Source: an uncultured bacterium
GTDB lineage: Bacteria > Bacillota_I > Bacilli_A > RFN20 > CAG-826
DNA: 39,649 bases
Direction: 5' to 3'
NCBI GenBank assembly: GCA_949299165.1
Contig: CASFZJ010000013.1
Location: forward strand, 1 to 39,649
Position numbers and translations under genes: made by a program. This document shows, in pieces, positions 7,165 through 31,214 of the stretch (positions are counted from its first letter, which is position 1; each line of letters starts with the position of its first letter). The notes under the pieces are model-generated. The model searched no databases. It worked only from the letters and a program-made list of their open reading frames with translations, and had not been told where the DNA came from.

Positions 7165-7240
7165 GGATGTTTAGCTCAGTTGGGAGAGCATCGCTTTTAC
7201 ACAGCGGAGGTCATAGGTTCAAGCCCTGTAACATCCACCA
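7165..7240 (+). tRNA. tRNA-Val (anticodon TAC)
   Basis: Acceptor GGATGTT/AACATCC, anticodon stem TCGCT/AGCGG with loop TTTACAC (anticodon TAC), T-arm with TTCAAGC, encoded CCA. First of five tRNAs. Confidence 0.95.
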
Positions 7241-7252
7241 TTTAGAAGACTT

Positions 7253-7336
7253 GGGAGGGTAGCGAAGAGGCTAAACGCGGTTGACTGTAAATCAATTCCT
7301 TCGGGTTCGGCAGTTCGAATCTGCCCCCTCCCACCA
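7253..7336 (+). tRNA. tRNA-Tyr (anticodon GTA)
   Basis: Acceptor GGGAGGG/CCCTCCC, anticodon GTA in CTGTAAA, a long variable arm as expected for bacterial tRNA-Tyr, T-arm GGCAG/CTGCC with TTCGAAT, encoded CCA. Confidence 0.95.
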
Positions 7337-7345
7337 CTAAAACCT

Positions 7346-7421
7346 TGGGGTGTAGCCAAGAGGTAAGGCAACAGACTTTGACTCTGTCATTCCGCTGGTT
7401 CGAGTCCAGCCACCCCAGCCA
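7346..7421 (+). tRNA. tRNA-Gln (anticodon TTG)
   Basis: Acceptor TGGGGTG/CACCCCA, anticodon stem CAGA/TCTG with TTG in the loop, T-arm CTGG/CCAG with TTCGAGT, discriminator G and encoded CCA. Confidence 0.95.
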
Positions 7422-7431
7422 ACCAAAATAT

Positions 7432-7507
7432 GATCCACTAGCTCAGTCGGTAGAGCACTTGACTTTTAATCAAGGGGTCTGGAGTTCGAATCTCCAGTGG
7501 ATCACCA
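7432..7507 (+). tRNA. tRNA-Lys (anticodon TTT)
   Basis: Acceptor GATCCAC/GTGGATC, anticodon stem CTTGA/TCAAG with loop CTTTTAA (anticodon TTT), T-arm TGGAG/CTCCA with TTCGAAT, encoded CCA. Confidence 0.95.
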
Positions 7508-7517
7508 CTTAATTGAT

Positions 7518-7604
7518 GCCCAGGTGGCGGAATAGGTAGACGCGCAGGACTTAAAATCCTGTGGTAGCAATACCGTACCGGTTCGATTCCGGTCCCGGGC
7601 ACCA
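7518..7604 (+). tRNA. tRNA-Leu (anticodon TAA)
   Basis: Class II tRNA with anticodon stem CAGGA/TCCTG and loop CTTAAAA (anticodon TAA), variable arm GGTA/TACC, T-arm ACCGG/CCGGT, encoded CCA. The acceptor stem GCCCAGG/CCCGGGC has an A-C mismatch at the fifth pair, which is unusual. Last of the cluster. Confidence 0.94.
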
Positions 7605-26592: not shown

Positions 26593-26620
26593 TTGACAAA
26601 AACAAAACAAGCCTTAAACT
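26593..26620 (+). promoter_or_regulatory. Housekeeping-type promoter of the ECF sigma operon
   Basis: -35 TTGACA (26593-26598) and -10 TAAACT (26615-26620), 16-base spacing. The -10 match is moderate. Transcripts would carry a leader of about 40 bases containing the inverted repeat at 26630-26661. Confidence 0.5.
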
Positions 26621-26635
26621 ATTTTCATATTGTAT

Positions 26636-26666
26636 CAAACATTTTTGTTATACAATTGTATTAATA
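26636..26666 (+). promoter_or_regulatory. Candidate ECF-type autoregulatory promoter
   Basis: CAAAC (26636-26640), 16 bases, then TGTATTAATA (26657-26666), directly before the ATG at 26668. The form AAC-N16-TGTA resembles ECF promoters such as AAAC-N16-CGTA of sigma-W. The same pattern occurs before the candidate RNA at 28142-28172. Start-point prediction falls on or beside the ATG. Confidence 0.45.
26650..26661. promoter_or_regulatory. Perfect 12-bp palindrome in the sigma gene promoter
   Basis: ATACAATTGTAT at 26650-26661, with a further TTGTAT at 26630-26635 that pairs with the ATACAA arm (AACA/TGTT extend that pairing). It could be an operator or an RNA hairpin just before the start codon. 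Confidence 0.35.
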
Positions 26667-26667
26667 T

Positions 26668-27186
26668 ATGAAGGATATAGAACTGTACAAACTTTGCAAG
26701 AAATTTATTGATGGGGATACGCGTGCTTTTGACGCAATTTATAACGATACCAAAAATAAAATTTTTGCTAATATCTATTCCTATGTAAAAAACAAAGAGA
26801 TTGCTGAAGATTTATTAAGCGATACTTACATAAGATTTTTAAATGGGATTAAAGATATTACTTCAGACAGATCTATCCTTGGCTATCTTTACACCGTTTC
26901 TCGCAATCTTTCTTTAAATTATCTTGAGAAAAACAAACGTTACACTTCTGATGGTGAAACTTTAATTGAAAATAATGGTGTTCACGAAAAATATCAAGAA
27001 AGTAACGATATTCTCGAAGTTATGAAAAGAGTTTTAAACGAGGATATGTTTAATGTAATCGTTCTCCATTTAATAAACGGATTGGATTACAAAGAAATTG
27101 CTGAAAGGTTAAATAAAAATGAGAATACGATTAGATGGCAATATAATGAAGGGTTAAAAAAAGTTAGAGAGGCTCTAAAAGAATGA
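26668..27186 (+). CDS. ECF-type sigma-70 family RNA polymerase sigma factor
   Basis: 172-residue alternative sigma factor. Region 2 (about residues 20-90) includes DLLSDTYIRFLNG and YTVSRNLSLNYLEK; region 4 (about 120-170) has a helix-turn-helix with LDYKEIAERLNKNENTIRWQ. There is no region 1 or 3, as expected for the ECF type. No Shine-Dalgarno sequence precedes the ATG; a -10-like element abuts it. The stop codon overlaps the next start (ATGA), the usual sigma/anti-sigma arrangement. The stimulus is unknown. Confidence 0.92.
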   Translation: MKDIELYKLCKKFIDGDTRAFDAIYNDTKNKIFANIYSYVKNKEIAEDLLSDTYIRFLNGIKDITSDRSILGYLYTVSRNLSLNYLEKNKRYTSDGETLIENNGVHEKYQESNDILEVMKRVLNEDMFNVIVLHLINGLDYKEIAERLNKNENTIRWQYNEGLKKVREALKE

Positions 27187-28115
27187 CAAACCTAGAAGAA
27201 GAAATCAAAAGGGCTTTTGAGCAAGAAAACATTGACCTTACATCAAAAGAAATCCTTGAGAAAAGTAATATCTCATTCATTGGTAAGAGACAAAAATTCA
27301 CTTTTGCGCAAGGAGTTCTTATTAGTTCTGCGAGTTTAGCGCTTGCAATTGGCGTTTTTTGTGTTGCTCTAATTCCACAATTTAACTATATTGAATCAAT
27401 TGAAGATAGTATTAGCAATCGTACTTTTGCTTCGCATGTTTTAAGTTGTCTTGGCGCAAACGAATTACTTTTAAATTCGCCAGATGGAGAAAATATTACT
27501 CTTCCTCCAGAAGATGTTCAAAAAGACACACTTCCACCAATTGCCTTTTTAAATTATGCATATACCAACAAAAAACACTTAGATTATTCTTTCATCAACG
27601 AAAAATCCAATATCGAAAACGAAACATTTAATGTTAGAGAAAATATTCGCGATGAATTTCTTTCAAAAAACTACGATCTTTTCCTTAAAAAAGAAGATGA
27701 TTATAAAATTAAAGCTCTTGTCGTCAATAACAAGGCACAAAGCAAAAACCCTGTTTATCAACTCGACATTCTCGGAGATGAAGAAAATAAAGATTGTTAC
27801 TTAAAACTTAATTTCAGACCATTAAGTGAAAAATATAAAGATTATTTGTTTTCACTCAAAGAAAATGTAGATAAATCCATTCAATATTCTTTACATGTCG
27901 CAGAAAAACCAATATTCACTTGTCGATTTGAATTCCATGACAATTACAATAAATTTATTTTAGATTTACACAAATTTAATCAAAAATTTATATTTAAAAT
28001 TTCCAATTTTGGAAATTTAAATTATAATTGTGAATACTCAGAAGAGGACGATCAAGAAAGCACAACTTCTTATGATTATACCTTCACTGATGATGGCACA
28101 ATCGAAGAAAATTAA
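27183..28115 (+). CDS. Single-pass membrane protein, probable anti-sigma factor
   Basis: 310 residues: a short cytoplasmic part (1-40) with a charged helix, one membrane segment at about 41-65 (GVLISSASLALAIGVFCVAL) and a large outer domain of about 245 residues with no motif I recognise. Translational coupling to the ECF sigma gene (four-base overlap) and this topology point to an anti-sigma factor. The cytoplasmic part is short, and no zinc-binding HxxxCxxC is present, so if it is an anti-sigma factor it is not of the ZAS class. The function is inferred from context only. Confidence 0.6.
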   Translation: MTNLEEEIKRAFEQENIDLTSKEILEKSNISFIGKRQKFTFAQGVLISSASLALAIGVFCVALIPQFNYIESIEDSISNRTFASHVLSCLGANELLLNSPDGENITLPPEDVQKDTLPPIAFLNYAYTNKKHLDYSFINEKSNIENETFNVRENIRDEFLSKNYDLFLKKEDDYKIKALVVNNKAQSKNPVYQLDILGDEENKDCYLKLNFRPLSEKYKDYLFSLKENVDKSIQYSLHVAEKPIFTCRFEFHDNYNKFILDLHKFNQKFIFKISNFGNLNYNCEYSEEDDQESTTSYDYTFTDDGTIEEN

Positions 28116-28141
28116 CAAATTTAAAAATTTTAAAAAAATTT

Positions 28142-28172
28142 CCAACAAATAATTAACTAAACTGTATTAATA
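28142..28172 (+). promoter_or_regulatory. Candidate ECF-type promoter of the structured RNA
   Basis: CCAAC (28142-28146), 16 bases, then TGTATTAATA (28163-28172). Element sequence and spacing match the motif before the sigma gene at 26636-26666. It lies 27 bases after the end of the membrane protein gene. A TATAAA nearby (28174-28179) has no good -35 partner. Confidence 0.42.
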
Positions 28173-28370
28173 GTATAAAAGAAATCCTTAAGAATATATT
28201 GAAAGATATATATTCACCGTAATTGCCTTGACTCGCTTATAAACAAGATAAAAACATAACTTGTTTATATAGTTGAGGGTATACTCCCCCCTTTAATACC
28301 CTCAAAGAAACAGTTCCTCGTAAGAGGATATAACCCCTTCAAAGGTGCGGCAAAAGCCGCACTTTTATTT
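28173..28370 (+). ncRNA. Candidate multi-hairpin small RNA
   Basis: About 200 bases without any ATG and with five hairpins in order: 28192-28215 (8 bp), 28238-28269 (10 bp, A-rich loop), 28273-28305 (10 bp TTGAGGGTAT/ATACCCTCAA, 13-base loop with six C), 28315-28328 (5 bp, GTAA tetraloop) and the terminator at 28345-28366. Single-stranded C-rich segments (the loop, and ACCCCTTC near 28333) resemble the UCCC motifs by which sRNAs of Gram-positive bacteria bind ribosome binding sites. It does not look like tmRNA, RNase P, SRP or 6S RNA. It could also be the 3' UTR of the sigma operon. The 5' end is a guess from the promoter motif. Confidence 0.55.
28345..28370 (+). terminator. Strong terminator of the sigma operon / small RNA
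   Basis: GTGCGGC, loop AAAA and GCCGCAC, then TTTTATTTT. The only T-run is on the plus strand, so the transcript runs rightwards. Confidence 0.92.
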
Positions 28371-28445
28371 TGTTTAGACAAAAAAATATTGGGGTTTTGC
28401 AGTGTTTTCGAAAAAATTTAATATTTTAAATGCAAAAATTAATAA
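28371..28445. other. AT-rich spacer with GGGTTTTGCAG word
   Basis: No gene. Contains GGGTTTTGCAGTGTTTT at 28392-28408, which differs in one base from 24538-24554. Confidence 0.5.
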
Positions 28446-31214
28446 TTATTCATCTACACTCTTCAAAGATTCGCTCATTGAAATTCCGTTTACTTTCACG
28501 TACATAAATAAATTAACAACTAGTGCTGTTAATAAAGAGATAAAGAAAGAAATCACGTAGCTCTCAGGGAAAACAAGATATAACCAGCTGACTAGGTTAG
28601 TTTCATTAACACTCAAAACCATATATTCAAATGGAAGTCCAATCAATAAACCAAGTCCAGCACCAACAATAGTTAAAATTAACATTTCAATAAGAAGTGA
28701 CATAACAATTCTTGTTCTTGAAAAACCTAAAACTTTTAATGTTGCAAGCTCTCTTAATCTTTCGTTGTAATTTAAAATTGATAAGTTAATCAAAACAACA
28801 ACCGCTAATAAAACAGCAAATACTTTAACAGTATTTGTCATTGTGCCGATTGATGACATATAACCATTAATTCTTGTTTCGGCATCTTCTTTAGTTAAAC
28901 AAGAATAAACATAATTTGAATTATTAATAATATATTCTTTTATTGATTTAGGATCGGTGCCATCACTTAGATTAATCCACGCCCCATTAGATGAGGTAAA
29001 AAGTTCTGGCTCACTTTCAACATACATATAAATTCCATTTACAAAAAAAGCATAGAAAATGTATCCAACTTCTTTTTTATAAATCTTTCCATTAACATCA
29101 AAAGTTACAACATCTCCAATAGTTACTCCTAAATCTTCAGCTTTAGCTTGGGTGATAGCAACTGTATTTTCTTCCCGCTTTCCATCCGGAAGTTCATCAT
29201 CAAAACCAAAAAATTTAGAATCTTTTTCAACTCCATAAAGCGAAGTTGAAACGGAACCATTATCACTATTTACAGTCACTTGAGTTGTTGAATATTCTTC
29301 AACTTGCGAAACACCATCTATAGTTAAAAGTTCTTCTTTAGCCACTCCTCTTTCTGGTGAGCCATTTAAAGTTACAGTTACATCAGAATTGAAAAAATTG
29401 TCTAAATCATGGTCTTTCCCATAATTTATAGTATCATCGATGCCCATTCCACAAATGAGTAAACCAGTGCAGCCCATAACACCAATTACAACCATTAAAG
29501 ATTTAGCAAAGTGAACTTTAATGTTTCTAATTGCCATCATAAATGAAGTATTTTTGATTAAATGTTTATGAGCTTTGAAGCGAGAAATTTTAGGAGATTT
29601 AGTTCTCATAGTTTCACTTGGTAAAAGTCTTAATTCGCTATATAAAAGCGCAATTGTTAATCCACTCACAAGAATAACTAAGATTAGAGTTGTGATCAGC
29701 GCAGTAATCCAAGGGAATAAATAAGTTAAAGATGGAATTGAGTATAAAATGTCATATTTTATATTCATTATATATGGAAGCAAAATTGGACCAATTATTA
29801 GACCAATTATAATTCCTAAAATTGTTACAATATTCATTTCCGCTAAATAATATAAAGCAATATGAACCTTTTTAATTCCAAGTGCCTTAAATGTACCGAT
29901 TTGGACACGGTCTTTTAAAATTAAAGAAGAAATTGTCGTTAAAACAATAAGTAAAGCAACTACGAAGAAAATAATAGGGAAAACTAATGTTAATTGTTTT
30001 GCTTGATTGATGTCATTTTCAACCGACAGCATACTTGGGTAATTTGAACGAGGAAGCGAAGCAAGTAAATTATTTTCATCTTTACTTTCGTAATATCGAT
30101 TTATGTTATTTTCAAAATCACCAATTTTTACATTTGAAGGGAGTTTTACAAGGATTTGATTGAAAAAAGAGGACATAAATTCTTCAAATTGGACATTACT
30201 TCTGTCATCAATTTCGGTTGTTAATGAATTAATCGAAAGAAGAACGAGCGCATCAAGTTGCATTGCGTTATCCCCTTCTTTTAAATAATCATTAACACTT
30301 GTAAGCAAAGTATTTAAAAGTTGATTTTCGCTTGTTTCAAGATAAGAATCAATTGCACTTATAATTGATTTTGAACTAAATTGATCGCCAACATAATCAA
30401 TGATATTTGTGAAAACAAGTCGAGTTGAAATTAGATAATTTGAACTAGAAAATTCTCCACTATCGAGATTTTCTGGATGGTTCATAATTCCATTAATACT
30501 TGCTTCAAATTCAATTACATCATCTTTAAAAATAGTTTCTACGACTTGAATTATGATGTTTCCAATTTCTGTAGAATAATTTCTAACTAAATTATCAATT
30601 AAAGTTTTAATATTCTCGTTAATTTCTCTCCCTTCAAGCATTAAATTAACAAGTTCAACAAGAGAATCTGGATCACTTGCTAAATTTCTAACCATCTGCT
30701 TGATGTAATTTGCATCAAAATTGATAGGTAAAGTATCACCTAATTTTAATTTTTTGGCATTATTATCTTCATATCTTTGAACAAGGGCACGATCAACAAA
30801 AAAGAAATTATTATCATTATAATAACCAACTTCTAGATTATAAGGTTTGTTAATTGTTGGGAGTTTATCCATTAATAAGGCACTGACGCTAGTTGAGCCA
30901 ATACTAGAAGGGATATAAAATCTTGTTTCTACCGCTCCTCCTTCATCAACATGTGCCTCTTTTTTTATAAACTCTAAATCTTTTTTACCATCTTCAAGAT
31001 TTGTAAAATTTGGATTTATCGTAATCCATTCATCAGCTACATTACCAACTTTATAAACTTCATTAACTCTATTTTCAAAACTTTGAGCATTTGCATCTAG
31101 ACCAACGTATAAAGTTACTGAAATTCCAATAATAAAAATAATCGATAAAAATTGTCGAAAATTTTTAAAAATATCTCTAAATAGTTTTTTAGCTAATGTT
31201 TTAAAAAGACGCAT
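28446..31214 (-). CDS. ABC transporter permease with two FtsX domains
   Basis: 922-residue permease. One helix at about 20-40, an outer domain of roughly 360 residues, a block of three helices at about 405-540, a helix near 580, a second outer domain of about 160 residues and three C-terminal helices. The two halves repeat each other: TFKALGIKKVHIALYYL and TLKVLGFSRTRIVMSLL stand at equivalent places. This is the long FtsX type found with a separate MacB/LolD-like ATPase, encoded one base upstream. Substrate unknown; position behind cls may hint at envelope lipids. Confidence 0.88.
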   Translation of the reverse strand: MRLFKTLAKKLFRDIFKNFRQFLSIIFIIGISVTLYVGLDANAQSFENRVNEVYKVGNVADEWITINPNFTNLEDGKKDLEFIKKEAHVDEGGAVETRFYIPSSIGSTSVSALLMDKLPTINKPYNLEVGYYNDNNFFFVDRALVQRYEDNNAKKLKLGDTLPINFDANYIKQMVRNLASDPDSLVELVNLMLEGREINENIKTLIDNLVRNYSTEIGNIIIQVVETIFKDDVIEFEASINGIMNHPENLDSGEFSSSNYLISTRLVFTNIIDYVGDQFSSKSIISAIDSYLETSENQLLNTLLTSVNDYLKEGDNAMQLDALVLLSINSLTTEIDDRSNVQFEEFMSSFFNQILVKLPSNVKIGDFENNINRYYESKDENNLLASLPRSNYPSMLSVENDINQAKQLTLVFPIIFFVVALLIVLTTISSLILKDRVQIGTFKALGIKKVHIALYYLAEMNIVTILGIIIGLIIGPILLPYIMNIKYDILYSIPSLTYLFPWITALITTLILVILVSGLTIALLYSELRLLPSETMRTKSPKISRFKAHKHLIKNTSFMMAIRNIKVHFAKSLMVVIGVMGCTGLLICGMGIDDTINYGKDHDLDNFFNSDVTVTLNGSPERGVAKEELLTIDGVSQVEEYSTTQVTVNSDNGSVSTSLYGVEKDSKFFGFDDELPDGKREENTVAITQAKAEDLGVTIGDVVTFDVNGKIYKKEVGYIFYAFFVNGIYMYVESEPELFTSSNGAWINLSDGTDPKSIKEYIINNSNYVYSCLTKEDAETRINGYMSSIGTMTNTVKVFAVLLAVVVLINLSILNYNERLRELATLKVLGFSRTRIVMSLLIEMLILTIVGAGLGLLIGLPFEYMVLSVNETNLVSWLYLVFPESYVISFFISLLTALVVNLFMYVKVNGISMSESLKSVDE

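Follow-up and report, generated by a model that had tools for sequence, protein, structure and literature searches.

Small regulatory RNAs (sRNAs) driven by extracytoplasmic function (ECF) sigma factors are already established in the envelope-stress responses of Gram-negative bacteria and of Fusobacterium. RybB, MicA and MicL of enteric bacteria are Hfq-dependent. FoxI and FoxJ are sigma-E-dependent sRNAs of Fusobacterium nucleatum (PMC11005410). Reports of envelope-stress sRNAs from Gram-positive bacteria are described as rare; the LhrC sRNAs of Listeria monocytogenes are induced by cell-envelope stress and carry UCCC motifs that are thought to bind ribosome-binding sites (PMC4132741). An ECF-sigma-driven envelope-stress sRNA of a Gram-positive bacterium was not seen in the result lists of searches of open-access papers, subscription journals being outside their scope. 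This work concerns a 39,649-nt stretch of DNA (contig CASFZJ010000013.1 of assembly GCA_949299165.1, analysed over its whole length and hereafter called the window) from an uncultured member of the Bacilli, in which an ECF sigma gene, a gene for a probable membrane anti-sigma factor and a small non-coding RNA follow each other on the plus strand, with the same two-part promoter motif before the sigma gene and before the RNA.

We propose, with a probability of roughly 0.85, an autoregulated sigma/anti-sigma module of the ECF type at this locus, extended by a non-coding arm. New are the RNA family, its placement in the second slot of the sigma operon, the group of host organisms and the matched promoter pairs. 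For uncultured Bacilli without detected Hfq, the locus provides a concrete RNA family together with its promoter and a small regulon that is conserved, and the matched pairs found across the family form a natural table that links ECF sequences to promoter sequences.

A two-part motif before the sigma gene and the RNA

The sigma gene has a putative autoregulatory promoter, CAAAC-N16-TGTATTAATA (26636..26666, plus strand), which ends one base 5' of the ATG, and a second copy, CCAAC-N16-TGTATTAATA (28142..28172, plus strand), lies before the RNA with an A/T-rich tract upstream of it. Both sites and their 16-base spacers are as the first-pass annotation had described them, and its caution that the 10-mer could recur by chance was justified: in 6 of 100 dinucleotide-preserving shuffles of the window, TGTATTAATA by itself turns up two or more times. 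The complete pattern AAC-N16-TGTATTAATA matches the window at these two places and nowhere else, and 100 such shuffles yield no match; the whole genome (1.43 Mb) holds three exact matches, the third of which falls inside a long open reading frame (ORF).

Orthologs of the sigma factor were found in four further species of the genus (69-95% identity). The five sigma-bearing species form a separate branch in the sigma tree with a support of 100/100. Each of the five carries both sites, so that the motif proposed for comparison in related genomes is indeed present in all four relatives, and the AAC element and TGTATTAAT are identical in 10/10 sites. The spacing, which had been called exact, is 16 at both sites of the window and elsewhere in the clade, except before the RNA in two species, where it is 17. 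The spacer itself drifts; four diverged sequences of the sigma promoter agree in a single one of 16 spacer columns. Conservation in five species, together with the promoter pairs of the paralogs described below, points to an autoregulatory promoter with an AAC -35 element and a CGT/TGT-type -10 element.

The sigma gene (26668..27186, plus strand) encodes a protein of 172 aa with only the sigma2 and sigma4 domains, as expected of an ECF (group IV) sigma factor: Pfam Sigma70_r2 matches residues 25-91 (1.6e-10), Sigma70_r4_2 matches residues 121-165 (1.1e-8), and the sigma70-ECF superfamily model TIGR02937 scores 72.1 bits against a cut-off of 42.9. On these domain matches the protein is an ECF sigma factor; its score stays below the cut-off of each curated NCBIfam ECF equivalog shown. 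The next gene (27183..28115, plus strand) overlaps the end of the sigma gene by 4 nt and encodes a protein of 310 aa with a short N-terminal part, a hydrophobic, probably membrane-spanning segment at about residues 43-66 and a β-rich C-terminal domain; in the structure model (pLDDT 73) the C-terminal part is mostly β. No Pfam domain matched this protein, and a fold assignment was dropped since the PDB fold search gave no match at E ≤ 0.001 and low TM-scores. By profile comparison (HH probability 97.0) it is related to the anti-sigma proteins encoded in paralogous operons, and from this kinship and its position it is probably a membrane anti-sigma factor.

Further upstream of the sigma gene lies a probable housekeeping (sigma-A type) promoter, TTGACA-N16-TAAACT (26593..26620, plus strand; 10/12 consensus matches), whose TT(G/T)ACA ... 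TAAACT-like layout is also visible in the aligned relatives and which would be the probable source of basal sigma transcription. The ECF-type -10 element stands only a few bases from the ATG (window 26660-26670), as it does in the relatives of the clade and in some paralogs. Given the usual distance from an ECF -10 element to the transcription start, the sigma mRNA would begin at the ATG, and when self-activated it may therefore lack a leader. Elsewhere in the window, a cluster of five tRNA genes is located at 7165-7601 (plus strand).

Matched promoter pairs in paralogous operons and a predicted regulon

Further ECF sigma factors of the same broad type occur in most members of the genus and in many genomes of the family. 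A set of 49 loci (43 fetched paralogous operons, for example L233 at G000:C20:10838-11344, with the five loci of the window type and L033) was searched for -35/-10 pairs that stand ahead of the sigma gene and recur past the stop codon of the anti-sigma gene. Shuffled sequences served as controls, because related paralogs share promoters and would inflate a control drawn from them. An identical 8-base -10 element with matching spacing recurred in 26/49 loci versus a shuffle mean of 0.01 (maximum 1), and with one mismatch allowed in 32/49 loci versus a mean of 0.15. About a dozen -10 flavours, including CGTATTTA, CGTTTTTA, TGTATATA and TGTTAATA, differ among operons and agree inside each of them, as in the pairs of the type CCAAT-N17-CGTATTTA or CGTTTTTA. 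Such matched pairs are the trace that would be expected of autoregulated sigma factors with differing specificity, and they are the strongest reason for assigning the motif of the window to the adjacent ECF sigma factor.

The slot behind the second promoter is mostly occupied by a lipoprotein gene in the paralogs (e.g. L233, L234 and L235). These lipoproteins are homologous to the C-terminal, outer domain of the anti-sigma factors (HH probability 99.5), which suggests a role as decoy, co-sensor or feedback protein. Two loci differ in this respect: in G031 (L270) and G155 (L271), where the second promoter is of the TGTATATA type, the gene behind it lies 139 nt past the anti-sigma stop codon and codes for a membrane protein instead of a lipoprotein. 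It is possible, if rather doubtful, that the family shares a module with a second self-activated slot, usually filled by an anti-sigma-like lipoprotein, and that in one clade this was swapped for a regulatory RNA, turning protein feedback on an envelope sensor into RNA feedback.

A search of the genomes for the two-part motif and the genes behind it, as the first-pass annotation had recommended, was made with AAC-N16/17-TGTATTAA in the five sigma-bearing genomes and in six sigma-less members of the genus. Of the matches, 30/45 in the former are intergenic and continue as TGTATTAAT, versus 4/21 in the latter (Fisher p = 0.0005, and p = 0.006 when the ten seed sites are left out). When the upstream regions of orthologs were read, the motif was found in 5/5 sigma-bearing species before pth, which is followed by an mfd-like gene, before an ABC ATPase gene, which is followed by an FtsX-type permease gene, and before a gene for a Bax-inhibitor-1-like membrane protein; the Pth, ATPase and Bax-inhibitor assignments come from Pfam, those of the permease and mfd from reading the sequences. 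Some of these sites are one-base variants (TGTATTTAT or GGTATTAAT), and one of the two Bax-inhibitor genes of G001 lacks the motif. In sigma-less relatives, the motif was not found in any extractable upstream region of the pth, ABC and Bax-inhibitor-1 orthologs, a number of these regions not being extractable. Upstream of the ABC transporter genes (L086 2046-2092, and orthologs), the ECF site overlaps a palindrome, GTCAACATATGTTGAC; a similar, TCAACA...TGTC-like sequence is retained by relatives without the sigma factor, which suggests an additional repressor site. In G001, G011 and G017, motif matches that no gene follows were inspected for further RNAs, and no second convincing RNA was recognized.

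A conserved RNA with five hairpins

The RNA (28174..28370, plus strand, about 195 nt) starts behind the second promoter, from which its 5' end is placed, and the region 28175-28385 folds with a z-score of -6.98. With a covariance model, the RNA was detected in exactly 5/26 genomes of the genus and 5/220 genomes of the family, which are the five sigma-bearing ones. Rfam 15 gave nothing at the gathering threshold, and none of its matches with E values of up to 10 touches the RNA; matches at permissive thresholds were attributed to chance. Short DNA matches of the RNA region in other genomes proved, where inspected, to be A/T-rich pieces or promoter tracts. On these comparisons the RNA is a new family.

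The alignment comprises 45 pairs with 94.7% of cells paired and 17 pairs with two-sided changes, a number equalled by 0/500 shuffles, slid versions giving 0-2. Five hairpins (P1 to P5, all on the plus strand) are kept across the five species, with P1 replaced in G011. P1 (28192..28215) has four pairs with two-sided changes and is fully paired in four species. P2 (28238..28269) has a stem, UAUAAACAAG/CUUGUUUAUA, that is invariant in all five and a loop that varies. P3 (28273..28305) has two-sided changes in 7/9 pairs and 100% of cells paired, and carries a C-rich loop, CUCCCCCCUUUA (28284-28295), with the invariant core CCCCCCUUUA. P4 (28315..28328; 96% of cells paired) is followed by a C-rich single-stranded linker (28329..28340), whose sequence AACCCCUUCA is invariant in the five species and which is a second candidate seed. 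The RNA ends with the terminator hairpin P5 and a U-rich tail (28341..28366; 11 pairs, six of them G-C); the P5 stem varies in sequence between species and its pairing is kept. This is a conserved non-coding RNA with an intrinsic terminator, and comparison between species indicates that it has its own sigma-recognised promoter.

The two central proposals of the first-pass annotation, a self-activating ECF sigma factor and a small RNA driven by it, are thus both supported: the adjacent protein is of the ECF type and matched promoter pairs track each sigma factor, and the RNA is conserved, covarying, terminator-ended and confined to sigma-bearing genomes. Judged by this comparison, the RNA very probably belongs to the sigma factor's own response.

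Hfq was detected in 0/5 sigma-bearing genomes, with control genomes positive, and the RNA accordingly does not class as an Hfq-dependent sRNA. C-rich loops and linkers are typical seeds that block ribosome-binding sites in low-G+C bacteria (PMC4132741, PMC11005410). Given that no Hfq was detected in these genomes and that C-rich segments are exposed, direct pairing from these segments is, by analogy, the most likely mode of action. Three of the five species (G013, G001 and G011; L288, L307 and L302) share the sequence AAGGGGG, complementary to the C-rich loop, before the ATG of a membrane-protein gene, and three (G000, G013 and G011; L280, L303 and L277) share it before the ATG of a LacI-family regulator gene. 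In the search for such G-rich ribosome-binding sites, the pattern was not clearly commoner ahead of ATG codons than its reverse, so these two genes are weak leads and no target is claimed.

Proposed mechanism, rival explanations and known systems

In the mechanism we propose, the basal promoter would provide some sigma factor, which the downstream membrane protein would hold inactive at the membrane until an extracytoplasmic signal frees it. RNA polymerase bearing the sigma factor would then bind CCAAC- or CAAAC-N16/17-TGTATTAAT and transcribe the operon of the sigma factor itself, starting at the ATG or beside it, as well as the small RNA that comes after this operon and a small regulon consisting of pth-mfd, the ABC/FtsX transporter and the Bax-inhibitor-1-like membrane protein. 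The invariant C-rich loop and linker of the five-hairpin RNA would most likely pair with G-rich ribosome-binding sites and repress mRNAs without Hfq. Comparison establishes the motif, its conservation, the sigma assignment and the RNA with its structure; transcription, sequestration, signal and targets we infer.

Several points weigh against this proposal. The five species represent one clade, so the co-occurrence of adjacent sigma factor and RNA comes close to a single evolutionary event. Sequestration of the sigma factor is deduced from gene position and from kinship with proteins that are equally uncharacterised, and several species-specific motif matches have no clear target gene. In addition, TGTATTAAT contains TATTAAT, which could be a housekeeping -10 element. 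The shared element might then be a housekeeping promoter unrelated to the ECF sigma factor, with TATTAAT resembling TATAAT and a weak -35 element whose ACA, within AACA, falls at the expected end of a sigma-A -35 element. Such a promoter would hardly explain why AAC and TGTATTAAT, including its G, are invariant without a TTGACA box, why a distinct sigma-A-like promoter lies further upstream, why the motif was not found before the pth, ABC and Bax-inhibitor-1 orthologs of sigma-less species, and why paralogous sigma factors of the same genome have different, internally matched pairs; we consider this explanation quite improbable.

The remaining rivals concern the RNA. There is no terminator between the anti-sigma stop codon at 28115 and the motif at 28142, so read-through into the RNA is likely, and the structured region could be nothing more than the 3' untranslated part of the sigma/anti-sigma transcript, in which the inner motif would be fortuitous or minor. 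We regard this as improbable, as the inner promoter is kept in 5/5 species while its spacer drifts, mostly precedes a separate protein gene in the paralogs, and is followed by conserved hairpins well upstream of the terminator. A convergent permease gene on the minus strand (28446-31214) has its end 80 bases downstream and seems to follow the RNA in G013, G001 and G011 as well, which could make the RNA a cis-acting leader or antisense element for this gene; however, the RNA has a terminator of its own and stops short of the permease gene, has no gene on the same strand after it, and is kept in G017 despite a different downstream sequence, leaving this option very little room. Equally remote is a short peptide encoded by the RNA as a vestige of the lipoprotein that fills the slot in most paralogous operons: interspecies changes preserve base pairs, and none of the five species has a forward ORF of at least 80 aa here, very short ORFs not having been systematically tested.

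An autoregulated module with a non-coding arm can be compared with four described systems. Bacillus subtilis-type ECF pairs share the hallmarks predicted for it, namely an AAC -35 element, a CGT/TGT-type -10 element, a co-transcribed anti-sigma factor and positive autoregulation (PMC8103513), and differ in that the window's sigma factor falls below the NCBIfam equivalog cut-offs shown and its probable anti-sigma factor lacks a Pfam domain. The likeness to RybB, MicA and MicL, which the first-pass annotation had drawn, is a functional analogy only: they too form the non-coding arm of an ECF envelope-stress response (PMC8103513), yet their targets are outer-membrane proteins and Lpp. Bacilli are not expected to possess an outer membrane, and no Hfq match was obtained in the organism of the window. 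To our knowledge, no sRNA occupies the adjacent slot of Bacillus subtilis-type ECF pairs. The LhrC sRNAs resemble the RNA of the window in being Gram-positive and in having C-rich UCCC motifs in loops and linker (PMC4132741), but they are multicopy and are controlled by the two-component system LisRK instead of an ECF sigma factor. FoxI and FoxJ offer a parallel on several counts, since rpoE, foxI and foxJ share -35/-10 motifs, the host is a low-G+C bacterium without Hfq, and the seed is poly-C, in FoxJ inside a hairpin loop (PMC11005410). The Fox RNAs have known targets and are likened to the RNA of the window by description, not by sequence; foxJ lies upstream of ylmH beside der, whereas the RNA described here directly follows the sigma/anti-sigma operon.
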